DNA of 64,000 nucleotides from Terricaulis silvestris (GTDB lineage: Bacteria; Pseudomonadota; Alphaproteobacteria; Caulobacterales; Aquidulcibacteraceae), in contig NZ_CP047045.1 of assembly GCF_009792355.1 (NCBI RefSeq), positions 434,001 to 498,000 of the forward strand, given 5' to 3'. Below are positions 25,421 through 40,914 of the stretch, piece after piece. Both the position numbers and the translations under genes were made by a program. Under the pieces are notes generated by a model that did not search any database, was not told where the DNA came from, and saw only the letters and a list, made by a program, of their open reading frames with translations. Every line of letters begins with the position of its first letter. Position 1 is the first letter of the stretch.

Positions 25421-26995
25421 TCACTCTCTGATGGCGCGTGCAAAGCCCGGATCGTTGGCCATCGCCGCAAACGCCGAGCTGCCCGCGAGCGCCATGAAGC
25501 CAGGCTCGCGCGCCAGCGTCGTGAAGGCTTGCGCGTTGGTCGCGAGAGCCGTCAGCGCCTGCGAGTCACGCGCCAGCGCCGTGAACGCCTGCGGGTTCGA
25601 TGATACCGCGGCAAATGCGCCCGGATTTTGCGAGATCGCTGCGATCGCGCGTGCGTCCATGGCTTGGCTTGACCGGACAAGCGCTGCTTGGGCTTGGAAC
25701 GCCTGCGCGCTTGCCGCCATCGCGGTTAGACCCGCCGAGTCGCGCGCCAGCGCCGTGAACGCTTGCGAGTTCGCAGCCATCGCCGTGAAAGCTTGCGTGT
25801 TGCTTGCAAGTGCGGTGAAGGCGCCAGCGTCGCGCGCCAAGGCTTGGAACGCTTCCGCATTGGCGGCCAAAGCCGTGAATGCCTGCGGGTCGGCGCGGAG
25901 CGCGGTCATAGCGGCGGCGTCGCGGGCCAGCGCCGTGAACGCTTGAGCGTCGCGCGCCATGGCAACGTTTGCGCCTGCGTCGCGCGCAGCGGCGGCGAAG
26001 GCGGACGCGTCACGTGCGTAGGCGCCGAAAGCTTCGCCGTTGCGGGCCATCGCGGTGAAGGCTTCAGGGTGACGGGCCAACGCAGCGAACGCGCCAGCGT
26101 GGGCGGCCATCGCTGTGAACGCCTGCGGTTGCGTCGCCATCTGAGAGAACGCCTGCGAGTTCACAGCCAGGGCCGTAAGTGCTTGGGTATTGGCGGCTTG
26201 CGCGATGCGTGCGTCGGCGGTCGCGGCCTGAGCGGTCCGAACCATCGACGTCAGCGCCGCGGAATCGCGCGCCAAGGCTTGGAACGCTTCCGCATTGGCG
26301 GCCAAAGCCGTGAATGCCTGCGGGTCGGCGCGGAGCGCGGTCATAGCGGCGGCGTCGCGGGCCAGCGCCGTGAACGCTTGAGCGTCGCGCGCCATGGCAA
26401 CGTTTGCGCCTGCGTCGCGCGCAGCGGCGGCGAAGGCGGACGCGTCACGTGCGTAGGCGCCGAAAGCTTCGCCGTTGCGGGCCATCGCGGTGAAGGCTTC
26501 AGGGTGACGGGCCAACGCAGCGAACGCGCCAGCGTGGGCGGCCATCGCTGTGAACGCTTCGGCGTTCGCGGCTTGCGCGACCGCCGATTGCGCGACCGCA
26601 GCATCGGCGCCGCGAACCATGGCGGCGAACGAGGCCTGGTCGCGCGCCAGAGCGGTGAACGCTTGCGCGTCGCGCGCCATGGCGACGAGCGCTTCGGAAT
26701 TACTTGCGAGAGCGGCAAAGCCCGGATCGCGCGCGAGCGCGCGGAACGACGGATCATTGACCATCAGTTCGAACGCGTCGGTCTGCATCAGCTGCGGAAC
26801 GGTCTCGTCGCCGAGCGTGATGTCGGCGCCCGATACCTGCGAGGCGCGGTAGCGGTCGGCCGGTGCGATAGTGCCAACGCTCTCGCCGGTGGGCGGCCAA
26901 AGCGTGCCGACCGTGATCGCGCCGATCGCCAGAACCCCAACAAGGGCAGTCGTAGCGACGCCCAGCTTCAAGCTGTTCGAAAGACCATTCGACAT
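25421..26995 (-). CDS. Membrane-anchored protein of 10-residue AFxALARDxx repeats
   Basis: A 524-residue protein. Residues 8-32 form one membrane helix (LGVATTALVGVLAIGAITVG), and a short linker follows. From about residue 85 to the end the chain is almost entirely a 10-residue repeat with consensus A-F-x-A-(L/M)-A-x-(D/N)-x-x, for example AFTALARDAQ and AFTAMAANSQ. About 40 units are visible. It contains no charged catalytic pattern. The period fits a repetitive solenoid or helical array better than classic pentapeptide repeats (which need A(D/N)LxX). Function unknown. Two copies of a 293-base block inside the gene are identical. It sits 68 bases upstream of the metallopeptidase gene in the same direction. 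The ATG at 26995 has GGGGAA upstream. Confidence 0.72.
   Translation of the reverse strand: MSNGLSNSLKLGVATTALVGVLAIGAITVGTLWPPTGESVGTIAPADRYRASQVSGADITLGDETVPQLMQTDAFELMVNDPSFRALARDPGFAALASNSEALVAMARDAQAFTALARDQASFAAMVRGADAAVAQSAVAQAANAEAFTAMAAHAGAFAALARHPEAFTAMARNGEAFGAYARDASAFAAAARDAGANVAMARDAQAFTALARDAAAMTALRADPQAFTALAANAEAFQALARDSAALTSMVRTAQAATADARIAQAANTQALTALAVNSQAFSQMATQPQAFTAMAAHAGAFAALARHPEAFTAMARNGEAFGAYARDASAFAAAARDAGANVAMARDAQAFTALARDAAAMTALRADPQAFTALAANAEAFQALARDAGAFTALASNTQAFTAMAANSQAFTALARDSAGLTAMAASAQAFQAQAALVRSSQAMDARAIAAISQNPGAFAAVSSNPQAFTALARDSQALTALATNAQAFTTLAREPGFMALAGSSAFAAMANDPGFARAIRE
25830..26122. repeat. Direct repeat copy 1 inside the decapeptide-repeat gene
   Basis: This 293-base block appears again at 26265-26557, exactly 435 bases (145 codons) further on and in frame. 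I saw no difference between the copies by eye. It encodes about 97 residues. The identity contrasts with the divergence of the individual 30-base units, so the duplication or gene conversion is recent. Confidence 0.9.
26265..26557. repeat. Direct repeat copy 2 inside the decapeptide-repeat gene
   Basis: Second copy of the block at 25830-26122, same strand and reading frame. The match starts at TCGCGCGCCAAGGCTTGG and ends at GCTGTGAACGC, after which the sequences differ. Confidence 0.9.
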
Positions 26996-27220
26996 GGCTA
27001 GTAATTCCCCGTGTGCCTCGCGCTGGGGATTTGCTGCCAATTATTACCGCACGTCAATGAAATTAGGGCCGAAATGCCATTATGATAGCGCTCCGCACTT
27101 TGCTGCAGCGCAACAATTCGGCCCAGCAGGGGTGATTGCTCTCGAGCCTAAGCTGTTTGTAATATATCCGGATCGGAATCGGGCATATCGGACCCGCCAG
27201 GATCCACGAGGGGGAAGACA

Positions 27221-29369: not shown

Positions 29370-30269
29370 CTAAGCGGGCTCCAGGGCCTGAATGGCATGT
29401 GCGCGAACATGGCGGCGGTAGCGTTCGACCAGGTCGAACGTGATGGCGCCGGGGCGGAACGAATGCGCGCCAATTTCGCCAACCGGCGTCACCTCCGCGG
29501 CGGTGCCGACGATGAAGCATTCGGTGAACGTCGGCAGGTCATGCGGTTCGATGCGTGTTTCGATCACATCGAGGCCCCGTTGGCGCGCCAGAGCGACTAC
29601 GGTTTGCCGTGTGATGCCATCGAGGAAGCAGTGCGGCGTCGGCGTGTGCAGCGCGCCGTCGCGGATGAAGAAGATGTTGGCGCCGGTGGTTTCGGCGATG
29701 GCGCCATCGCTATCGAGCATGAGCGCGTCGTCGTAGCCATCACGCTCCGCGGCGTTCTTGGACACCGTGCAGATCATGTAGAGCCCGGACGCTTTCGCTT
29801 CTGTCGGCGCGGCGTTCGCGGGTGGACGGCGATACTTGGCCCAGCACAACCGAACGCCGCGTTGGAAGCGTTCGGCGTCAAAGTATTTCGGCCATTCCCA
29901 CACCGCGATGGCGACATGCGTCCTGGTCGAGAGGGCGGAGACGCTCAGTTGTTCAGCGCCCCGCCAGGCGATGGGGCGGACGTAGCATTCGGTCAAACGG
30001 TTCTTGGCGCACGTTTCGATGCAGGCGCGGTTCATTTCAGCTTCCGTGTACGGAATCTCAAAGTCGAGAATTTCAGCTGAGCGAAACAGCCGACGCGTGT
30101 GCGCTTCGAGCGCGAAGATGCGCCCGTCATACATGCGCTCGCCCTCGAACACCGCCGATCCGTAATGCATCGCGTGCGTCAGCACATGCAGGTTCGCCGC
30201 GCGCCACGGCACGAACGCGCCGTCGAACCAGATCCAGCCGTCGCGGTCGTCAAATGGAACAAGCGCCAT
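29370..30269 (-). CDS. ilvE: Branched-chain amino acid aminotransferase
   Basis: A 299-residue fold-type IV PLP enzyme. It has HAMHYGSAVFEGERMYDG near the N-terminus, the PLP lysine in EAKASGLYMICTVSKN, and DGAIAETTGANIFFIRDG and GITRQTVVALARQRG. It catalyses the last step of Leu, Ile and Val synthesis from the 2-oxoacids. The ATG at 30269 begins the conserved part; the longer reading to 30509 overlaps leuB and has no resemblance. It is the last gene of the ilv-leu operon. Confidence 0.94.
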   Translation of the reverse strand: MALVPFDDRDGWIWFDGAFVPWRAANLHVLTHAMHYGSAVFEGERMYDGRIFALEAHTRRLFRSAEILDFEIPYTEAEMNRACIETCAKNRLTECYVRPIAWRGAEQLSVSALSTRTHVAIAVWEWPKYFDAERFQRGVRLCWAKYRRPPANAAPTEAKASGLYMICTVSKNAAERDGYDDALMLDSDGAIAETTGANIFFIRDGALHTPTPHCFLDGITRQTVVALARQRGLDVIETRIEPHDLPTFTECFIVGTAAEVTPVGEIGAHSFRPGAITFDLVERYRRHVRAHAIQALEPA

Positions 30270-30277
30270 GTGACCCC

Positions 30278-31366
30278 TCAACCCCAATGCATCTGGACAT
30301 GATGTGAATGCGAGACCGAGCGCAGAACCTCGTCGGCGATACGCTCCGCCATCGCTTGGCAGCCGATGTCGCCCCCGAGATCGGCCGTACGCGCGCCGGA
30401 ATTGATGACGCGTTCGACCGCGGCCTCGACAGCGTCGGCCTCGTCGGCAAGCCGCAAGCCATAACGCAACAGCAGTGCGGAGGAGAGAATCGCGCCGATC
30501 GGGTTGCATCTGTCGCGGCCCGCCAGATCGGGCGCCGAGCCATGAACGGGCTCGAACAAGCCTGGACCTTCGGCGCCGAGCGATGCGGAAGGCGCGAGCC
30601 CGATGGATCCGCCCAGTACGGAGGCTTCATCGGAGAGAATGTCGCCGAACATATTCTCGGTGAGGATGACGTCGTAGGCCCGTGGCTGGCGGATCAGTTG
30701 CATCGACATCGAATCCACGAGCGCGTGTTCCAGCCGCACGTCGGCGAATTCCTTGGCGTGCAGGTCCGTTACGACTTCTCGCCAGAGGCGGCTGGTTTCG
30801 AGCACGTTTGCTTTATCGACAGACGTAACTTTGCCGCGGCGTGCTCGAGCGGCAATGAAAGCCGCGCGGGCGACCCGCTCGATCTCGGGCGTGGTGTAGA
30901 TGCATTGATCACTGGCGAAATCTGCACCGCGGCGTTTCTCGCCGAAGTAGGAGCCGCCCGTCAGCTCGCGGAACACGACGAGATCAACATCGGCAACAAC
31001 CTCTCGGCGCAGAGGAGAGCAATCCAGCAGCGCATCATAGATCAAGACCGGGCGGATGTTGGCGAACACGCCCAAAGCCTTGCGCAGTTCGAGCAGGCCT
31101 TGTTCGGGGCGGCGCGAGCCGCCATCCCATTTCGGTCCGCCGACCGCACCAAGAAAAACGGCGTGCGATTGGCGGCAGGCGACGAGCGTTTCTTGCGTCA
31201 ACGGATCGCCGGTCGCATCGATGGCGGCGCCGCCAATCAGCTGCGTGTCGAAGACGAAGCGATGGTGAAAGCGATCGGCAACCGCTTGCAGCACCTCGGC
31301 CGCCGCGCGCGTCACTTCAGGCCCGACACCGTCGCCGGGCAGGAGTGCGATATTAAAGGTGCTCAT
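30278..31366 (-). CDS. leuB: 3-isopropylmalate dehydrogenase
   Basis: A 362-residue protein with the family pattern LLPGDGVGPEV, LGAVGGPKWD, FRELTGGSYFG, SVDKANVLETSRLWR, LVDSMSMQLI and FGDILSDEASVLGGSIGLAPSA (each cited separately). It oxidises and decarboxylates 3-isopropylmalate with NAD. The start overlaps the leuD stop by 4 bases, and ilvE follows after 8 bases. Confidence 0.96.
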   Translation of the reverse strand: MSTFNIALLPGDGVGPEVTRAAAEVLQAVADRFHHRFVFDTQLIGGAAIDATGDPLTQETLVACRQSHAVFLGAVGGPKWDGGSRRPEQGLLELRKALGVFANIRPVLIYDALLDCSPLRREVVADVDLVVFRELTGGSYFGEKRRGADFASDQCIYTTPEIERVARAAFIAARARRGKVTSVDKANVLETSRLWREVVTDLHAKEFADVRLEHALVDSMSMQLIRQPRAYDVILTENMFGDILSDEASVLGGSIGLAPSASLGAEGPGLFEPVHGSAPDLAGRDRCNPIGAILSSALLLRYGLRLADEADAVEAAVERVINSGARTADLGGDIGCQAMAERIADEVLRSVSHSHHVQMHWG

Positions 31367-31941
31367 GCTGTCCTCGTTTCAAATGCTTCGATTGCAGGCA
31401 GGCGTTCGATGAGCCAGCCCATGGTGTCCACGCCTTCGAGAAGGCAGCGGCGTGCGAATGGTTCGACGGTGAACGCCACCGGCGGCTCGTTGCCGACAGA
31501 GAGTTCGCAGCGTTCGAGGTCGATGGTGACGCGTCCGCCGGGGTCGGCGAGTAGGCGCTGGTGTGTCGCGTCGTCGACCACCACCGGCAGCAGGCCGTTC
31601 TTCAAGGCGTTCGACGAAAAGATGTCGGCGATGCTGGTGGAGATCACGGCGCGGAAGCCGTAGTCGAGCAGGGCCCATGGCGCATGCTCGCGCGAAGAGC
31701 CGCACGCGAAGTTATCTCCGGCGACGAGAACGCGGTGCTCAGTGGGATCAAGTGTGTTGAGAGCCGCGCCGTCCAGTGCGCCGCCGTCGGCATCGTAACG
31801 CCAATCATAGAAAGCAGCGGCGCCCAACCCCTCCCGTGACGTGGTGGTCAGGAAGCGCGCCGGAATGATCTGGTCGGTGTCGATGTTGGCTTGCGGCAAC
31901 ACGAGCGTGCGCGACGTAATCGTGGCAAAGCGTTCAGGCAT
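31363..31941 (-). CDS. leuD: 3-isopropylmalate dehydratase small subunit
   Basis: A 192-residue swivelling-domain subunit with [34 protein letters not shown] and [20 protein letters not shown]. With LeuC it isomerises 2- to 3-isopropylmalate. The ATG at 31941 (MPERFATI) is inside the end of leuC, an 8-base overlap. The longer in-frame reading to 32100 lies within leuC and is rejected. Confidence 0.95.
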
Positions 31942-33355
31942 CGACGCTCTCCCGTGCGTAAGTCCGCGGATCGGTGAGCGCGCCGGCGATGGCGCTTGCG
32001 GCCGCCGTCGCCGGGCTGGCGAGGATAGTGCGGGCGCCTTTGCCCTGGCGCCCTTCGAAGTTTCGGTTTGACGTTGAGACAGCGAGTTGGCCGGGTCCAA
32101 CGAAATCGCCGTTCATCGCAATGCACATCGAACATCCCGGCAGACGCCACTCCGCGCCCGCATCGATGAACACGCGATCCAACCCTTCCGCTTCCGCTTG
32201 CCGCTTGACCGCCTCTGAGCCAGGCACGACCAACATCCGCACACCGGGTTTTACCTGTCGGCCCCGCAGTACTGCGGCGGCGTCGCGCAAATCGGAGATG
32301 CGGCCGTTGGTGCATGAGCCAACGAACACCACATCGACGGCGTGACCGGCTGTGGGTGTGTTGGCTTTGAAGCCCATATAGTCGAGTGCTTGCCGCTCAC
32401 TGTCGGTGCGCGGTGTTGGCGTTGTGGCGCCGATCGCGATGGACGCGTCCGGTGTTGTGCCGAAGGTCGCCATTGGCGCGATGCTCGAGGCATCGAGTTC
32501 GATCTCGGCGTCGAAACGTGCGCCGTCATCGGTTGTGAAGGTGAGCCATTTGGCGGCCTCCGCTTCGAATGTTTCACTTGGCGGCGCGTATCGGCGTCCG
32601 CGCAGGAAAGCGACAGTCTTTTCATCGGCCGCCACCATGCCGGCGCGCGCACCGGCTTCGATCGACATGTTGCAGAGCGTCATGCGCCCTTCCATGTCGA
32701 GGGCGCGAATGGCCTCGCCTGCGTATTCGATGACAAAGCCCGAGCCGCCGCCGAAGCCGATGCGGCCAATGACGGCGAGTGTCAGATCCTTGGCAGCGAC
32801 GCCGGGCTGAAGCTGGCCATGCACCGTAACGCGCATTTGCTTGGGCTTGCGTTGCAGCAGGCACTGCGTCGCCAGCACGTGACCGACCTCAGAGGTGCCG
32901 ATGCCGAAGGCGAGGGCGCCGAACGCGCCGTGTGTGGCTGTGTGGCTATCGCCGCACACCACCACCATGCCCGGCTGCGTGAGACCGAGCTCCGGCGCCA
33001 TGACGTGGACGACGCCGCGATCGGCGCTGTCCCAGTCCGCCAGTCTGATGCCGTGCCGGGTGCAATTGTCGCGCAGTGCATCGACTTGCGCAGCGGCGGC
33101 AGTGCTGGCGTAGGGCCGTTCGCCGTTTGCGTTCGGTGGCAATGTCGGCGTCGAGTGATCGAGCGTGGCGTAGGTGCGTTCCGGGCGGCGAACCTTGAGG
33201 CCGGATCGATCGAGTTCGGTGAAGGCCTGCGGGCTCGTCACTTCGTGGACCAGGTGCAAGTCGACGTAGAGAATAGCCGGCGCATCGGCAGTCTCGGCCT
33301 GCACCACATGCGCATCCCAGATCTTGTCGAACAGCGTGCTAGGGCGCGAAGGCAT
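31934..33355 (-). CDS. leuC: 3-isopropylmalate dehydratase large subunit
   Basis: A 473-residue aconitase-family subunit beginning [18 protein letters not shown]. It has [45 protein letters not shown] and [11 protein letters not shown], which supply the three Cys ligands of the 4Fe-4S cluster. The ATG at 33355 overlaps the end of leuA by 17 bases. The extension to 33481 is inside leuA and is not used. Confidence 0.96.
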
Positions 33356-34556
33356 GGACGGCTCCAGTGTCTTCGGCGTTGGTTGCACCGATGATGATGA
33401 GCAGTTCGCTATCGTCGATCTCACCGATCTCATCCGCACGGGTCTTGAATCGCGCGAACACTTCGCCGAGTTCATTGCCACTCAGCCGATAGCCGAGCGC
33501 CTCCGCGCGCTGCACGATGGCGTGGCGTCCCGAATGTTTGCCGAGCACGAGGCGTGTGCCGGAGAAGCCGACATCTTCCGGGCGCATGATTTCATACGTA
33601 CGCGCATCCGCGATCATGCCGTGCTGGTGAATGCCAGCTTCGTGCGCAAACGCGTTCAGTCCGACGATGGCCTTGTTGCGGACGACTGGCGAGCGCGTCA
33701 GTGAGCTGAGCAGGCGGCTGGTGGCGACCAGCTTGGTGGTATCGACGCCGGTATGCACGCCATACAGGTCGGCACGCGTCCGCAGCGCCATCACCACTTC
33801 TTCCAGCGCGCAATTGCCCGCGCGTTCGCCGATGCCGTTGATTGCGACTTCGACTTGCCGCGCACCATTGGCGACCGCCGACAGCGTATTGGCGACGGCC
33901 ATGCCCAGATCGTTGTGGCAATGCGCCGAGATGACTATGCCGGGGTGGTGTGGTTCGACGCGGCGCTTGATCGCGGCAAAGATCGCGCCGATCTCGTCTG
34001 GCGTGGAGTAGCCGACTGTATCGGGGATGTTCAGCGTGCTGGCGCCGGCGTCGGCGACGGCCTCCATTATGTCGCCCAGAAACTCCGGCTCGGTGCGGAT
34101 CGCGTCTTCGGCGGAGAACTCCACGTCATCGAACAAAGTGCGCGCGAACGTGACCGCGCGCACGGCCGTGTCGAGCACGTCGGCGGCGCTCATATTGAGC
34201 TTGGCGGCGCGGTGGATCGGGCTGGTGCTGAGGAAAATGTGCAGCCGGCGCTTCGGGGCGCTTTGCAACGCGCCGTAGGCGGTTCGGATGTCCTCCTCGT
34301 TGGCGCGCGAGAGCGAGCAAAACACCGGGCCTTCGACTTCGCCCGCTACGCGCCGCACAGCGTCGGCGTCACCAGGGGAGGCGGCGGCGAAACCTGCTTC
34401 GATCACGTCGACGCCGAGATCGCGCAAGGCCGTGGCCATCTGCACCTTGGCTTGGGACGACATCGAGAAGCCCGGCGCTTGTTCGCCATCGCGCAGCGTC
34501 GTGTCGAAGACAATGACGCGATTGGGATCCAGTTGTTGGGAGTCTACGCCGGGCAT
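33339..34556 (-). CDS. leuA: 2-isopropylmalate synthase, short form without regulatory domain
   Basis: A 405-residue protein. Residues 13-280 are the HMGL-type TIM barrel ([57 protein letters not shown]). Residues about 300-400 are the linker subdomains ([20 protein letters not shown]). The roughly 110-residue C-terminal leucine-binding domain of ordinary LeuA (510-560 residues) is missing; the stop falls in a clean operon overlap with leuC, so this is not an obvious truncation. It condenses acetyl-CoA with 2-oxoisovalerate. Homocitrate or citramalate synthase is an alternative, but the leuCDB context favours LeuA. Confidence 0.88.
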
Positions 34557-34816
34557 GGCGCTACCTCCTCAACCCGTACAGATGAGGCGGTAGCCGTCAT
34601 GCGACGGGCGCCCACGAGACGGTCGATCTGACGGCCGAGCACATCCATGCACCGGCCCGGTTCGCGCACGCGCACGGCCACGCGCACTTCGCGATACGCG
34701 CCGTGATTGGCGACGCTCATGCTGTCGATGTGAAAGCCGCGGCGCTCCACGAGACCAATAAGACGCTGGAGTGAGCCTTCGGCGTGGTCCATCTGAATGA
34801 GGAAGACGTCTTTCAT
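34544..34816 (-). CDS. ilvN: Acetolactate synthase small subunit, single ACT domain (IlvN/IlvM type)
   Basis: A 90-residue protein that is essentially one ACT domain (EGSLQRLIGLVERRGFHIDS, then VRVREPGRCMDVLGRQIDRL). The usual alphaproteobacterial IlvH is about 160-180 residues; this length is closer to enterobacterial IlvM/IlvN. ACT subunits bind valine and activate or feedback-control the catalytic subunit. It overlaps both ilvB (4 bases) and leuA (13 bases). Confidence 0.85.
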   Translation of the reverse strand: MKDVFLIQMDHAEGSLQRLIGLVERRGFHIDSMSVANHGAYREVRVAVRVREPGRCMDVLGRQIDRLVGARRMTATASSVRVEEVAPCPA

Positions 34817-36519
34817 TGGGTCTCTCCGTGCATCATGTCCGAGTTACTCTTGCCTGGCGGCACCAGCGGCCAGACGTTGTCTTTTGCATCGATGATCACG
34901 TGCGCGAGGCAGGGGCCTTCGGCCGCGAGCAGCCGCGCGATGCCGGGGCCGACCTCCTCGCGCTTGCTAATTCGGAACGCTTCGATGCCGAACGCCCGCG
35001 CGACGGCGGCGAAGTCGGGATTGTCGGAGAGATCGATCTCGCTGAAGTTGCGATCGAAGAAGAGCTCTTGCCACTGGCGCACGAGGCCGAGCGAAGAATT
35101 GTCCAACACGACGATCTTCAGTGCGATGTTGTAGCGCCTCAGTGTCGCCAGCTCCTGAATGTTCATGATGAAAGAGCCGTCGCCACTGATGGTGACGACA
35201 TGGGCATCCGGGCGCGCCAACTTCGCGCCCAAGCCTGCAGGCAAGCCGTAGCCCATCGCGCCAAGGCCGCCCGAGGTGAGGTGAGCGGACGGCGACGAGA
35301 ACCGGCAGTGCTGCGCCACCCACATTTGGTGTTGGCCGACGTCGCACGCCGCGACGAAGGTATCGCCCGCTTCCGCGGACAACTGCGCCAGCAGCGCGGG
35401 CGCGTAGACGCCATCTCCTGGTGCGTCGTATCGGAACGCGTGAGCGCGCTTGCCTTCGGCGCATTGCGCGATCCAGTCGCCGACGCGCGGCGGATGCGGC
35501 GACAGCGCGGGGAGCACCGTCTTGACGTTGCCGGCAATAGCGATGTCCGCCGAGCGCAGTTTGCCGATCTCGGCCGCATCGACGTCGATGTGCAAAACGC
35601 GCGCATGCGGCGCGAAGCCTTCCAGCCGGCCCGTGGCGCGATCGTCGAACCGTGCGCCTAGCACGATCAGCAGGTCGCAGGCCTGCACCGCCTCGTTGGC
35701 GGCGCGCAGACCGTGCATGCCGATCATCCCGAGATTGGTGGGATCGTCCGGCGAGAGAACGCCAAGGCCCTGCAACGTGCAAACGCCTGGAATTGTCGTG
35801 GCCGCTTTGAAGGCGCGAACTTCATCGACAGCGTCGGCGATGCGAACGCCGCCGCCGATGTAGAGCAAAGGACGTTGCGCCGCGCTGATCATAGTTTCAG
35901 CGCGGCGCAAGTGCGCCGGATCGGGCTTGCGCGCGCCCCCTGGGTGACGGTTGGGGATGGAGGGCGCAGCGGCGAGTCCGATCTGGACGTCTTTTGGCAG
36001 ATCGATCAGCACGGGGCCTGGCCGGCCCGATGCGGCGATGTGAAAGGCCTCTTCAAAGATGGCCGGAATGTCGTTGGGATCGCGAACGATCCAAGAGTGT
36101 TTCACCAGCGGCAGCGTAGCGCCTAGGATGTCGATTTCCTGAAACGCATCGGTGCCCATGAGCGGCGATGAGACATTGCCCGTGATCGCCACCATCGGCA
36201 CCGAGTCCATCATCGCATTGGCGATGCCTGTGATCAGATTGGTGGCGCCGGGGCCGGACGTAGCCATGCACACGCCGGGCTTGCCGGTGACGCGAGCATA
36301 AGCATCGGCGGCGAATGCGGCAGCCTGTTCGTGGCGCACCAGGATGTGCTTGAAGCGCGCGCTGGTGAGCGCGTCATACACCGGCATGATGGCACCGCCC
36401 GGGTATCCAAACACGATCTCGACACCCAAACGGTCGAGCGTCTCGACGACGAGACGTGCGCCGTTGGGCGGCGCGGTGTCCGGTGCGGTGTTCGGCTTGG
36501 AGGCGACGCTTGCGGTCAT
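34813..36519 (-). CDS. ilvB: Acetolactate synthase large subunit
   Basis: A 568-residue ThDP enzyme. It has the catalytic Glu region (FGYPGGAIMPVYDAL, then LVRHEQAAAFAADAYARVTG), the FAD-region segments, and the ThDP motif beginning GDGSFIMNIQELATL with DNSSLGLVRQWQELFF. It makes acetolactate and acetohydroxybutyrate. It sits 3 bases downstream of ilvC and 4 bases into ilvN. Confidence 0.95.
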   Translation of the reverse strand: MTASVASKPNTAPDTAPPNGARLVVETLDRLGVEIVFGYPGGAIMPVYDALTSARFKHILVRHEQAAAFAADAYARVTGKPGVCMATSGPGATNLITGIANAMMDSVPMVAITGNVSSPLMGTDAFQEIDILGATLPLVKHSWIVRDPNDIPAIFEEAFHIAASGRPGPVLIDLPKDVQIGLAAAPSIPNRHPGGARKPDPAHLRRAETMISAAQRPLLYIGGGVRIADAVDEVRAFKAATTIPGVCTLQGLGVLSPDDPTNLGMIGMHGLRAANEAVQACDLLIVLGARFDDRATGRLEGFAPHARVLHIDVDAAEIGKLRSADIAIAGNVKTVLPALSPHPPRVGDWIAQCAEGKRAHAFRYDAPGDGVYAPALLAQLSAEAGDTFVAACDVGQHQMWVAQHCRFSSPSAHLTSGGLGAMGYGLPAGLGAKLARPDAHVVTISGDGSFIMNIQELATLRRYNIALKIVVLDNSSLGLVRQWQELFFDRNFSEIDLSDNPDFAAVARAFGIEAFRISKREEVGPGIARLLAAEGPCLAHVIIDAKDNVWPLVPPGKSNSDMMHGETQ

Positions 36520-36522
36520 GAC

Positions 36523-37524
36523 TCAGGCGTTCGTCGGCGATTTCAGCCAGGCCATGCGCTCTCGGAGCGCGGCGCCGGTCTTTTCTATGGGGTGATTGCG
36601 ATCAGCATTGAGCATTGCCGTGTAGCGCGGCTTGCCTGCTTGGTTTTCCAGGATCCAATCGCGCGCGAAATTGCCGGATTGGATGTCGCGCAGCACTTCG
36701 CGCATGCGCTCGCGTGTTTCCTCGGTGATGATGCGCGGACCAGAAGCGACGGCGCCGTACTTGGCGGTCTCGGAGATGAAATCGTGCATCTTCGAGATGC
36801 CGCCCTCGTAGAAGAGGTCCACGATCAGCTTCAGCTCGTGCATGCACTCGAAATAGGCCACCTCGGGCTGATAGCCGGCGTCGACCAAGGTCTGATAGCC
36901 GGCCTTCACCAATTCCTTGGCGCCGCCGCACAGCACTGCCTGTTCGCCGAACAGGTCAGTCTCGGTTTCTTCCGCGAACGTCGTTTCGATCAAGCCGCCA
37001 GCGGCGCCGCCGATGCCTTTGGCGTACGCCATGGCGCGGGCGCGCGCGGTCTCGGTGGCGTCCTGCTTCACCGCGAACAGCGCCGGTACGCCGCGTCCAC
37101 GGATGAACTCGCGCCGCACCAGATCGCCAGGGCCCTTCGGCGCCACCAGCACGACATCCATGTCGGCGCGCGGCTGCACGCGACCGTAGTGGATGGAGAA
37201 ACCGTGCGCGAAGAGCAGCGCCGAGCCCTCTTTGGCGTGGGGCGCAATGGTTTCCTTCCAGACGGCTTCTTGCGCCATGTCAGGTGTGAGGATTGCGATC
37301 AGATCGGCGCCTTTCACCGCTTCAGTGGGCTCGGCGGTTTCGATCTTGTCGGCGCGGGCGTTGGTCCAGCCTTTGCCGCCCTTGCGCACGCCCGTGACGA
37401 CGTCGAAGCCGCTGTCGCGCAAATTCTGCGCGTGAGCGCGGCCTTGGCTGCCATAGCCGATGATCGCGATGCGCTGATCTTGCAGTGCGTCTGAGCGCAC
37501 GTCGTCATTGGAATAGACTTTCAT
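36523..37524 (-). CDS. ilvC: Ketol-acid reductoisomerase
   Basis: A 333-residue class I KARI with the N-terminal Rossmann loop [20 protein letters not shown], the [10 protein letters not shown] and [11 protein letters not shown] segments, and the all-helical knotted C-terminal domain ([31 protein letters not shown]). It uses NADPH and Mg to make 2,3-dihydroxy acids. The start overlaps the ilvD stop by one base. Confidence 0.96.
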
Positions 37525-39245
37525 CAGGAGGCCTCACGCTGCGCCGGTGCGCGTTGCTGCGCCGGCGGTGGGTTGGGAATGGTGACGGCGCCTTGCGAAG
37601 CGGAGGCGACGAGGGCGGCGTATTTGGCGAAGGCGCCAACCGGCGCCGGGCGCGACGGCGGGACGGCGCTGCGCGTGGACAGGTCGGCGCGCACGTTCAT
37701 GCTACGCGCCGGCACGTCTATGGTGATGATGTCGCCGTCGCGGATCAGCGCAATCGGGCCGCCGCTCGCGGCTTCCGGCGACACGTGGCCAATGACGAAG
37801 CCGTACGAGGCGCCGGAAAAGCGGCCGTCTGTGATCAGCGCGACGTTCTGGTAGCCGCGACCCTTGAGGGCGGCGGTGACTTGCAGCATCTCGCGCATGC
37901 CGGGGCCGCCCTTTGGGCCTTCGTAGCGGATGACGATGACGTCGCCTTCGGTGATCGCGCCGGATTGCGTGGCTTCAAACGCGGCTTCCTCGCTGTCGAA
38001 CACGCGCGCCGGACCTTCGAAGCGCTCGATGGCGTGGCCCGCGAGCTTGATCACCGCGCCGTCCGGCGCGATGTCGCCGTAGATCACCGCGTAGGAGCCG
38101 CGTGGAATGACCGGGGACGAGAACGCGCGGACGACTTTCTGGTGCGGTGTTTCGACGGCTTCGCGCGCCTCTTCATAGAGCGAGCGGCCTGAAACAGTGG
38201 CGATGTCGGTGATGCGTCCGGAATCCATCAGGCGCTGCGCCAGCAGGCGCGTGCCCCCCGCGGCGAACAGATCGTGAGCCAAAAATTGCCCGCCCGGTTT
38301 CAGGTCGCAGATGACCGGCGCGCGTTCGCAGGCCTCGTTGCAGTCCTCGATGCCGAAAGCGACGCCAGCTTCGGCGGCGATGGCGGTGAGGTGGAGCACC
38401 GCATTTGTAGAACCGCCGCTGGCGGAGACGGCTGTCGCGGCGTTGCGCAGCGCGGCTCGCGTGATGAACTTGCGCGCGTTGAAGCCGCGCCGTGTCAGCT
38501 CCACCGCGACGCGGCCGCAGCGCTCGGCTTCGGCGGGCTTGCCGGGATGGACTGCAGGCACGTCGTTGGCGCCCATGGGGGAGAGACCCATCATCGAGAG
38601 CGCCATCGCCATGGTGTTGGCGGTGAACTGGCCGCCGCACGCACCGGCGCCTGGACAGGCGGCGGATTCGACTTGCTTCAAGCCCTCATCATCCAAAGTG
38701 CCGGCGCCATGCGCGCCGATGGCTTCGAACACGTCTTGGATGGAAATGTCCCTGCCGGCGTGTCTGCCGGCCATGATCGTGCCGCCGTAGAGTACACATC
38801 CCGGCAGATCCATGCGCGCCAGCGCCATAGCCGCGGCAGGAATGGTCTTATCGCAACCGACGATACAGACCACGCCGTCGAGTTGATGGCCCTGCACTGC
38901 GAGCTCAATCGAGTCTGCGATAACTTCGCGCGAAATCAGCGACGCCTTCATACCTGGCGTGCCCATCGAGATGCCGTCGGTGACGACGATGGTGTTGAAG
39001 TCGATCGGCACGCCGCCGGCTTCGCGCACGCCGCGGCGCACGTGCTCGGCCAAGTCGCCCAGATGCATGTTGCAGGGCGTGACCGATGACCAGGTGTTGA
39101 CGACCGCAATCAGCGGCCGCGCGAAGTCCTCATCGCCGAGCCCCGCCGCGCGCAGATACGAGCGCGCCGCGGCGCGATTTGCGCCAGAGGTCACGACCGC
39201 GCTGCGGAGCGGTTTTTGCTGATTTGGTGGGGATTCTCGCGTCAT
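37524..39245 (-). CDS. ilvD: Dihydroxy-acid dehydratase
   Basis: A 573-residue IlvD/Edd protein with cluster cysteines in [33 protein letters not shown] and [20 protein letters not shown]. The C-terminal domain has [23 protein letters not shown] in the usual position. It makes the 2-oxoacids for Val and Ile/Leu. It is the first structural gene of the operon. A small hairpin (GGTCCG/CGGACC at 39250-39268) lies just before the start, and no strong ribosome site is visible, so translation may be influenced by RNA structure. Confidence 0.95.
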
Positions 39246-39278
39246 TTTGGTCCGGTTGAGACGGACCGCCAGACAACA

Positions 39279-39305
39279 AAAAACCCGCTGCCTTTCGGAG
39301 CGGGG
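39279..39305 (-). terminator. Attenuator terminator of the ilv-leu operon
   Basis: On the minus strand CCCGCT and AGCGGG pair (39285-39290 with 39300-39305), extended by an inner GG/CC, and are followed directly by six T. It lies between the leader peptide stop (39337) and the ilvD start (39245). A strong terminator in front of an operon and after a Val/Leu-rich leader is the classic attenuator layout. Confidence 0.85.
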
Positions 39306-39336
39306 TGATGCTGGCGATCCTGTTGTTGAGGTCAGG

Positions 39337-39480
39337 TCACGTCAGCCACGCCGCTCCGGTGCTAAGAATAAGCGCCAGGCCAAGAAGGACTACGTTTACG
39401 ACGACGACGCCAAGCGCGCGCGCATCGACGGCGACAACAGTCGCGGTCGGGCGTGCAGCGGTGGGGCGATTCATCGACAC
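39337..39480 (-). CDS. ilvL: Val/Leu-rich leader peptide of the ilv-leu operon
   Basis: A 47-codon ORF read from the GTG at 39480, with AGGAG 8 bases upstream; an in-frame ATG at 39474 is the alternative. Residues 24-40 read GVVVVNVVLLGLALILS, so nearly every codon is Val, Leu or Ile. The terminator at 39279-39305 follows 31 bases after the stop. E. coli IlvL has the same logic: ribosomes stall on Val/Leu/Ile codons when charged tRNAs are scarce and prevent termination. The function is inferred; the sequence features are seen. Confidence 0.8.
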   Translation of the reverse strand: MSMNRPTAARPTATVVAVDARALGVVVVNVVLLGLALILSTGAAWLT

Positions 39481-39751
39481 GAAGTTAGCTCCTGAACAAA
39501 GAAGGACAGACTTTTGTGCAGTGCGCAATGCACAAAATGTCCGCTCCCGCGAAAATCCTGCGATTGCCGCTTTTTGGGGCGCCGCACAGTTAAGCGGCAC
39601 TAAACTCTCAGAGGCACGAGCAGACTTCGCGTTCATCGGGTGAGCGGCGAAGCCGGGCGAGTAGCGCCGCCGCAGTTCGCCTCTTGCGCTGATTTGGAAA
39701 ATGGTCGCACCGCCCCCAATTCTCAGGGACGGTCGAGGGAGCAGCAGAGCG

Positions 39752-40690
39752 GTGGAATCAAAGGAAGTCGTGCCTCCGTTTCTGAGCGTGCGCGTGTTCG
39801 AAGCCGCGGCGCGTCTCGGCAGCTTTGCGCGCGCTGCGGAGGAATTGGGCATCACGGCCGGCGCCGTCAGTCAGCATGTACGCATTCTGGAAGAGTTCGC
39901 GGGCCAGCCGCTATTCCGCCGGTTAGGGCGTGGCGTTGAGCTGAGCGATGCAGGGCAGGCGGCATTCTCGCACGCGAGTGCTGCGATGTCGGAGATGCTG
40001 GAAGCTGGCCGCGCCATGCGCGCAAGCATGCGTGGGCGGCGGATTTCGATCTCGACCCCGCCGTCCTTCGCGTCGAAATGGCTTATTCCCAGGCTCAGCG
40101 AGTTTCAGCAGCGCTACCCTGAGGTGGAGGTCCGCATCTCCGCCGACATGACACTAATCGATTTCGCGGTGACGGATATCGACCTCGCCATCCGCTACGG
40201 TCCTGGCGGCTACGAAGGTCTTTCTTGCGAGCGGCTAATGTCGGAGTCGGTGGCGGTCGTCGTTAGCCCAAAACTTCTCGAAGGCCGCGCGCCCGCGCGC
40301 ACAGCGGCTGATTTCTTGGACCTGCCGCTGATCCATGACGATGCGCCGGAGCGCGATCTTTCATGCCCGACCTGGAGCATGTGGTTCGCGGCGCGCGGTT
40401 TGCGGCGCGTCGAATCCGAGCGCGGGCTGCGTTTCAATCATTCTGGCTTGGCGCTGGAAGCCGCCGTTGCGGGCAAAGGCGCCGTGCTGGCTAAACGACA
40501 ATTGGCCCTGCGCGACCTGGCGGAGGGCACGTTGGTCTCGCCCTTGGATGAAGGCGATGCACCTCTGGCCTTTGCGTACTGGTTGGTGTGGCCGCGTGGC
40601 CGCCGGTTCGAACCGGCGCAGGCGGCGTTCCTCACGTGGTTGCGCGAGGAAGTGATCGCGAGCGACGCGGGCGCGGATCAAACCGCCTGA
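39752..40690 (+). CDS. LysR-family transcription regulator (GcvA-like)
   Basis: A protein of about 312 residues. The N-terminal winged helix-turn-helix has FLSVRVFEAAARLGSFARAA and ITAGAVSQHVRILEEFAGQP. The C-terminal substrate-binding domain has ISTPPSFASKWLIPRL and DIDLAIRYGPGGY, typical of the GcvA/AmpR branch. I use the GTG at 39752; a GTG at 39770 (just before PPFLS) and an ATG at 39701 are alternatives. It is divergent from the ilv leader and upstream of the his leader, so it may control either operon; no operator was identified. Confidence 0.88.
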   Translation: MESKEVVPPFLSVRVFEAAARLGSFARAAEELGITAGAVSQHVRILEEFAGQPLFRRLGRGVELSDAGQAAFSHASAAMSEMLEAGRAMRASMRGRRISISTPPSFASKWLIPRLSEFQQRYPEVEVRISADMTLIDFAVTDIDLAIRYGPGGYEGLSCERLMSESVAVVVSPKLLEGRAPARTAADFLDLPLIHDDAPERDLSCPTWSMWFAARGLRRVESERGLRFNHSGLALEAAVAGKGAVLAKRQLALRDLAEGTLVSPLDEGDAPLAFAYWLVWPRGRRFEPAQAAFLTWLREEVIASDAGADQTA

Positions 40691-40757
40691 GGCGCCGTTC
40701 GCGTCACGGGCGTGCGTGTTGACGCTCCGACCTAAGTTCGGATAGGCTTCCAACGTG

Positions 40758-40847
40758 ATGTGCACCGGTTTCCAACCGACTTTTGCCGACCGCCCCGTTC
40801 TGGGTGCGGTTGCGCATGCGCACCATCACGCTCACGCACGACATTAA
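40758..40847 (+). CDS. hisL: His-rich leader peptide of the his operon
   Basis: A 29-codon ORF from ATG 40758 (in-frame GTG at 40755 just before it) to TAA 40847. The last eleven residues read AHAHHHAHARH, with six His. It ends 95 bases before hisG, and a hairpin followed by a T-run lies between. This matches the layout of his attenuators, where stalling at His codons allows read-through. No strong ribosome site is seen (AGG about 9 bases upstream). Function is inferred from position and codon content. Confidence 0.7.
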   Translation: MCTGFQPTFADRPVLGAVAHAHHHAHARH

Positions 40848-40873: not shown

Positions 40874-40914
40874 GGAGCGAGACGCCAGGCGTTTTCGCTC
40901 CATGCGCTGTTTTT
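40874..40914 (+). promoter_or_regulatory. Candidate his attenuator hairpin
   Basis: GGAGCGA (40874-40880) pairs with TCGCTCC (40895-40901), with an inner ACGC/GCGT extension, so the stem is about 11 pairs. Five T follow at 40910-40914, but eight bases separate them from the stem, so the terminator is not textbook. It lies between the leader peptide and hisG. The competing antiterminator fold was not worked out. Confidence 0.5.

Follow-up and report, generated by a model that had tools for sequence, protein, structure and literature searches.

Predicted ribosome-mediated attenuation, with rare control codons, upstream of an ilvD-headed operon in Caulobacterales

The window, which is the whole 64,000-nucleotide stretch of DNA analyzed here, carries upstream of ilvD a short open reading frame (ORF) rich in Val, Leu and Ile codons, followed by an intrinsic terminator. 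With a probability of about 0.92, we read these elements as a device for ribosome-mediated transcription attenuation of the ilvD-ilvC-ilvG-small subunit-leuACDB-ilvE operon. Computation shows the elements themselves, their complementarity, conservation and codon bias, and a folding of the window leader that depends on where the ribosome stalls; a promoter, actual termination and readthrough, the operon structure and a response to amino acids are inferred.

In the proposed mechanism, RNA polymerase would start upstream of the leader ORF. When charged Val-, Leu- or Ile-tRNA is scarce, the ribosome would stall on the run of GTC, GTA, CTT and ATT codons, leaving segment 2 of the RNA free to pair with segment 3, so that no terminator would form and the operon would be transcribed. 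When charged tRNA is plentiful, the ribosome would reach the stop codon and cover segment 2; segments 3 and 4 would then form the terminator, and transcription would end 32 nt before ilvD. An earlier note on this DNA had proposed attenuation by Val/Leu/Ile supply, and that proposal is supported by the antiterminator complementarity, the stall switch of the window leader, conservation and the rare control codons.

The leader, its terminator and the genes downstream

The leader ORF (39337..39480, minus strand) comprises 47 codons plus a stop, with a GTG start and a TGA stop. It encodes the peptide VSMNRPTAARPTATVVAVDARALGVVVVNVVLLGLALILSTGAAWLT, within which lies the Val/Leu/Ile-rich run GVVVVNVVLLGLALILS. 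A putative ribosome-binding site, CAGGAGC (39488..39494, minus strand), stands 7 bases 5′ of the GTG, so that the sequence offers the short, apparently translatable leader ORF (39480-39337) characteristic of ribosome-mediated attenuators. ORF, ribosome site and run were all found on the minus strand where the earlier note had placed them. The control codons (LGVVVVNVVLLGLALIL, 39364..39414, minus strand) form the V/L/I-rich part of the ORF, with 13 such codons within a 20-codon stretch, and are thus enriched for the amino acids that the operon makes. When the 455 nt upstream of ilvD were shuffled with dinucleotide content preserved, 0/3000 shuffles contained an ORF with at least 13 V/L/I in 17 residues, a threshold chosen after the sequence had been seen, with or without a terminator. 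The leader ORF together with the terminator is beyond chance expectation.

The terminator (CCCGCTCC-GAAA-GGCAGCGGG plus six U; 39278..39304, minus strand) was recognized by folding and sequence and lies between the leader and the first gene. Its stem (39304-39284) starts 32 nt past the leader stop, and the six U run to 39278. Folded alone it reaches −14.1 kcal/mol, equaled by 1/200 shuffles. A strong intrinsic terminator had been claimed 34 nt before ilvD; the terminator is there, but the distance from the U-tract to the ilvD ATG (39245) is 32 nt. A simple terminator scan did not list it upstream of ilvD, probably because of a bulge in the stem.

All nine downstream genes lie on the minus strand, and profile matches (scores given against model cut-offs) bear out the nine-gene ilv-leu set of the earlier note. 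The set begins with ilvD, encoding dihydroxy-acid dehydratase (37524..39245; PRK00911, 708.6 vs 644; TIGR00110, 609.8, just below its cut-off of 618.15), followed by ilvC (36523..37524; TIGR00465, 429.8 vs 226.15), an ilvG-like gene for a II-type acetolactate synthase large subunit (34813..36519; PRK08978, 860.9 vs 738) and a gene for a 90-aa small subunit (34544..34816), which matches three small-subunit models, all below cut-off. Next come leuA (33339..34556, 405 aa; PRK00915.1-3, 571.4 vs 532, the match stopping at model position 386/516), leuC (scanned as 31934..33379, listed ORF 31934-33481; TIGR00170, 628.9 vs 560.25) and leuD (31363..32100; TIGR00171, 168.6 vs 116.25). Since the leuD match begins only at residue 56, its true start is probably internal. 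The set ends with leuB (30278..31366; TIGR00169, 467 vs 353.2) and ilvE (scanned as 29370..30239, listed ORF 29370-30509; TIGR01122, 287.2 vs 245.55). By these matches and pathway knowledge, the operon covers the Leu branch and the enzymes common to Val and Ile synthesis, and from their arrangement the nine genes would form one transcript. Elsewhere in the genome of the window (3.86 Mb, single contig) are another dihydroxy-acid dehydratase-like gene with 47% identity (G000:C1:684319-685968) and another ilvC (G000:C1:2637529-2638461). The window itself also holds a 539-aa ORF of internal repeats of the MARDAQAFTALARD type (25421-27040, minus strand).

A promoter for the leader would be expected upstream of the ORF. 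A candidate −35-like element, TTGCGC (39523..39528, minus strand), is separated by a 19-nt spacer from a poor −10-like element within 39504-39497; scanning 39000-40000 for sigma-70 promoters gave no hit. A TTG(C/A)-N15-20-TCTA-like pattern, a loose and ad hoc definition, ends shortly before the ribosome site in 16/22 leaders of the genus and in 1/13 Brevundimonas-type leaders.

Beyond the leader, the earlier note had proposed a His leader using the same logic. A His-rich, leader-like ORF (40755-40847, plus strand), ending HAHHHAHARH, is indeed present before hisG. Eight bases lie between the hairpin near hisG (40874-40901; −18.4 kcal/mol, equaled by 3/200 shuffles) and its U5 run, so that as folded the His terminator is not canonical; this part of the proposal is supported only in part.

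Antiterminator, stall folding and the outer stem

Segment 2, the 5′ strand of the antiterminator (GGAGCGGCGTGG, 39346..39357, minus strand), consists of the codons for Gly-Ala-Ala-Trp (GGA GCG GCG TGG). When the leader is folded to minimum energy, 39357-39346 pairs with 39307-39297, which is segment 3, the 3′ strand (CACCCCGCTCC, 39297..39307, minus strand). Segment 3 overlaps the 5′ arm of the terminator, and the two structures are mutually exclusive. Folding the leader RNA for antiterminator pairing was the check that had been suggested, and it gave pairing of the last ORF codons with the 5′ arm of the terminator.

The strength of this duplex was compared in 50 leaders with 1000 versions encoding the same peptide and drawn from ilvD codon usage (that of the genus for all leaders except the Brevundimonas type). 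Leaders L210 and L211 were left out of this comparison, the terminator pattern being too narrow, and kept for the folding and outer-stem tests. The window duplex beats its synonymous controls at p=0.001. Across the set, 34/50 leaders do so at p<0.05 with a mean z of −2.12 (p values uncorrected, leaders related), comprising 16/22 of the genus, 7/13 of the Brevundimonas type, 10/11 further leaders and 1/4 remoter ones; the other 16/50 do not beat the control at 0.05. Because the duplex is stronger than its synonymous controls, the conserved Gly-Ala-Ala-Trp end reflects the RNA and not the peptide alone.

Stalling was simulated by folding, codon by codon, the RNA ahead of the ribosome, from 13 nt past the start of the A-site codon to the U-tract. 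In the window leader the folding switches with the stall position. The probability of the terminator is 0.01-0.18 for Val and Leu stalls from the first through the penultimate control Leu and 0.49 for a stall at Ile; once the ribosome has reached the last control Leu, and as far as the stop, it is 0.98-1.00. With the ribosome at the stop, it exceeds 0.9 in 52/52 folded leaders; all of these have the terminator, the set having been picked for it, and U-tracts are poor in L112 and two congeners. At some V/L/I stall it falls below 0.5 in 28/52 leaders (12/22 genus, 7/13 Brevundimonas type, 8/13 further, 1/4 remoter) and, under equilibrium folding, stays above 0.5 in 24/52. In these 24, the antiterminator would have to act kinetically, as it can form ahead of segment 4.

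For the ribosome-free window leader, the fold depends on how much sequence is included: 110-190 nt upstream of the stop give the antiterminator (terminator probability 0.00-0.18), 100 or 90 nt the terminator (0.64 and 0.94). Given this dependence on the chosen 5′ end, no part of the window leader stands out clearly as a segment-1 protector. Within the first half of the ORF a hairpin recurs in position, and a role in pausing was considered. It was rejected, since the hairpin does not exceed its synonymous controls in strength (mean z −0.38 in the genus and −0.09 in the Brevundimonas type), and p<0.05 was reached in 3/22 genus, 1/13 Brevundimonas-type, 3/13 further and 0/4 remoter leaders. RNAalifold, run on a MAFFT alignment, returned five pairs only, all of the antiterminator, perhaps because the terminator loop is gapped in the alignment.

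An additional outer stem encloses the terminator and its U-tract. Covariation identifies its 5′ strand just 5′ of the terminator (GGATCGCCAGCA, 39309..39320, minus strand) and its 3′ strand after the U-tract (CTGGCGGTCC, 39263..39272, minus strand). In 52 leaders, strands paired with their own partners averaged −16.29 kcal/mol, against −14.05 kcal/mol when partners were swapped within groups, and 0/20000 permutations were as good. Four remoter leaders do not show the stem (own mean −5.12), and 5′ strands of the Brevundimonas type fit 3′ strands of the genus nearly as well as their own (−17.11 vs −17.32). A further hairpin, GGTCCG...CGGACC (39249..39267, minus strand; −10.1 kcal/mol, 7/200 shuffles as good), ends 3 nt before the ilvD start. 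It shares GGTCC with the 3′ strand of the outer stem, and only one of the two can form at a time. In 24/36 loci this stretch contains some inverted repeat of 5 bp or more, a count made without a chance control. In the boldest reading, the choice between outer stem and hairpin could provide a second, translational control of ilvD.

Conservation and choice of control codons

IlvD orthologs (at least 78% identity) occur in 23/30 genomes of the genus, the window included. One lies at a contig edge with its upstream DNA cut off, and this locus (L023) was excluded from the leader counts. Among the genus genomes in which the DNA before an IlvD ortholog can be read, 22/22 carry leader and terminator, again counting the window. 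The absence of the leader ORF from close relatives sharing the operon had been named as a result that would speak against attenuation; the ORF was looked for and is there in all 22, the leader being conserved together with the operon. Ribosome sites of the AGGAG/GGAG type precede 21/22 of the genus leaders and 10/13 of the Brevundimonas-type leaders, start codons in the relatives having been picked so as to favor such a site. An RNA model built from 36 leaders matches, among the 30 genus genomes, exactly these 22, by construction since they are its own training sequences, and 0/7 of those without an IlvD ortholog. Leader and terminator also occur in 13/13 loci of the Brevundimonas type (10 titled Brevundimonas, one Caulobacteraceae, one Alphaproteobacteria and one Bordetella with a like leader). 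Since the sequences are related, none of these leader counts is independent.

The leader was not seen before 50% identical IlvD genes in another genus of the same family (L114-L116, L118), and the upstream DNA of L054, L065 and L113, which are not among the folded set, held no convincing leader. Among 80 relative loci, upstream DNA was examined in 25 (L032-L055, L065), the other 55 being remote taxa; six of the 25 are repeats of genus genomes (among them L038, which lacks upstream DNA), and the leader of L037 is that of L112 again. Three genomes of the genus (G017, G027, G029) have neither an IlvD ortholog nor an IlvC above cut-off, so that they may need branched-chain amino acids; four others (G009, G011, G014, G028) retain ilvC and lack the IlvD ortholog.

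Across the order, taken as Caulobacterales from named relatives, the RNA model matches 119/398 genomes and 19/59 genera. Twenty-two further matches in 20 regions precede ilvD (10), ilvC (3), an aspartokinase-type gene (4) or small genes (5), the downstream gene being judged by its protein start, with one ilvC and one aspartokinase checked against NCBIfam. In view of these other genes, the weak matches are partly other attenuators or chance. Two loci, L209 (G264:C2:108700-114000) and L211 (G109:C1:287000-292100), each carry a divergent pair of attenuator-like leaders within a single intergenic region: one rich in Val/Leu/Ile before ilvC, the other rich in Thr/Ile (TTIITITTT-type) before the aspartokinase-type gene. 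The latter is reminiscent of thrL of E. coli. The aspartokinase-type gene of L209 encodes a 598-aa aspartokinase-homoserine dehydrogenase fusion. Weak matches at L205-L208 and L218 (L218 belongs to a congeneric genome, G001) precede small genes of 103-131 aa; ORFs upstream of these contain Thr/Ile/Met or Val/Ile runs, and NCBIfam gave no match for the N-terminal parts of two of the small genes.

The control codons are unusual in their third positions. In the genus, 114/254 of the V/L/I codons at positions −28 to −9 before the leader stop end in G/C; the other codons of this stretch do so in 168/185 cases, and the V/L/I codons in ilvD of the same species in 1853/2169. The corresponding figures for the Brevundimonas type are 78/145, 99/113 and 1292/1347. 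Outside this stretch, G/C-ending V/L/I codons number 45/69 in the N-terminal part and 42/48 in the last eight codons in the genus, and 31/35 and 13/14, respectively, in the Brevundimonas type. The AT-ending shift is thus concentrated in the control codons, and in the genus it is not wholly confined to them. By amino acid, in the last 27 codons, GTA makes up 51% of Val codons vs 3.2% in ilvD in the genus (44% vs 0.6% in the Brevundimonas type), CTT 39% vs 6.8% of Leu codons (32% vs 0.3%) and ATT 62% vs 19% of Ile codons (78% vs 4.3%), an enrichment over ilvD of the same species of about three-fold to hundred-fold. The window leader uses CTT for 5/7 Leu, ATT for 1/1 Ile, and GTA for 2/6 and GTC for 4/6 Val in this region; GTC, the commonest of its Val control codons, is a common Val codon and counts against the rare-codon pattern there. 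Among 139 genes called heuristically in the window's genome, 24 V/L/I-rich stretches have a mean third-position GC of 0.81, with 1/24 at or below 0.5, compared with 5/13 in the V/L/I stretch of the leader.

The shift is a strong sign of selection on the reading of V/L/I codons, and rare synonymous codons probably sharpen the response of the attenuator. It agrees with a theory in which attenuators favor the sensitive ones among synonymous codons and isoacceptor charging predicts a bias in control-codon choice; rarity alone is described as an oversimplification, as thr uses major codons (PMC1183508). Alternatively, AT-ending codons could serve to keep the RNA unpaired, although neighboring codons do not show the same shift. 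A survey of tRNA genes found one gene each for Val UAC, GAC and CAC and for Leu UAA, UAG, GAG and CAG; as Ile GAU was absent, the survey is probably incomplete and offers no argument from gene dosage. ATT and ATC are expected to share one tRNA, in which case the ATT bias would need another cause, such as decoding speed or RNA structure.

Competing explanations, known systems and significance

The ORF might instead encode a functional small membrane protein, with the terminator merely separating it from ilvD. Its C-terminal half is hydrophobic and conserved and has a well-kept GA(A/V/E)W motif, but V, L and I interchange between species while rare codons are enriched, and V/L/I-rich stretches of the genome's other genes are not rare-coded. 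The antiterminator accounts for the GAAW codons, with complementarity above that of synonymous codons. Moreover, the peptide has no NCBIfam family, and two leaders scanned have no Pfam family. We therefore hold a membrane protein to be very improbable. A metabolite-binding riboswitch or a T-box in place of a ribosome sensor is less credible still. A covarying outer stem around the terminator is what such an RNA might show, but the key strand lies inside an ORF under codon selection, and the window has no Rfam match at gathering score. Below that score, 39200-39560 has a sole match, to an animal miRNA family, attributable to chance.

Control chiefly by a regulator, with the leader secondary, deserves somewhat more attention. 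A divergent LysR-type gene of the GcvA subfamily (39701-40690; PRK11139, 290.4 vs 288) adjoins the leader, and a palindrome, TTTTGTGCATTGCGCACTGCACAAAA (39512..39537), overlaps the −35-like element as a candidate operator. In Caulobacter, IlvR is said to act on ilvD. Gene and palindrome suggest extra control at the window locus, and LysR control and attenuation are not mutually exclusive. However, a LysR homolog adjoins the leader in only 2/41 loci (L002, L014; within the 0.5-3 kb examined), as opposed to a leader in all readable loci of the genus, and palindrome-like sequences occur in few relatives and are not generally conserved. As the main control, this candidate was rejected for its lack of conservation and is considered unlikely. 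Ribosome-mediated attenuation remains the preferred reading.

Among known systems, ilvGMEDA of Escherichia coli and Salmonella is likewise an attenuated operon with an acetolactate synthase II-type enzyme, ilvE and ilvD (PMC1183508). The window operon differs in being headed by ilvD, in including leuACDB and in having segment 2 inside the leader ORF. The Salmonella leu leader shares the use of rare synonymous control codons, in its case CUA, and a swap to CUG lowered its sensitivity (PMC1183508); window-type leaders differ in favoring rare codons for three amino acids together. Closer to the present lineage, Caulobacter crescentus ilvBN/ilvIH has an Ile/Val leader with an intrinsic terminator and reported attenuation (PMC4117421), so that attenuation of an ilv operon already has a precedent in a relative; Tarleton et al. 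1994 is cited there as the original study. The Caulobacter crescentus leader precedes ilvBN and the window leader ilvD. The ilvD (WRC-18-2) motif of Veillonella likewise precedes ilvD as a conserved RNA and in some cases has a potential terminator; as described, it is confined to Veillonella and ranks as a weak candidate for a riboswitch (PMC8632094). The main text of PMC4117421 does not mention ilvD, and that of PMC2965389 mentions neither ilvD nor Caulobacter. In the open-licence literature, with subscription journals largely outside, no description of an ilvD leader in Caulobacterales was found. The ilvD-headed attenuator, its spread and its use of rare control codons thus look undescribed.

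A wider reading, which we offer tentatively and regard as doubtful, is that Caulobacterales possess one attenuator layout with exchangeable control codons, placed before ilvD, ilvC and the fused aspartokinase-homoserine dehydrogenase gene. Its elements would be an antiterminator strand, GGAGCGG, in the last leader codons and a terminator of the CCCCGCTCC type, with the ilvD version adding a translational second switch. Super-attenuation is known for trp; since the ribosome-free window leader folds as the antiterminator, blocked leader translation might here cause readthrough instead.

As a GC-rich lineage, these bacteria provide a clean natural record of control-codon choice. If the attenuation reading is true, it would explain how a nine-gene operon for Val, Leu and Ile is controlled in a little-studied branch of the Alphaproteobacteria and in Brevundimonas.
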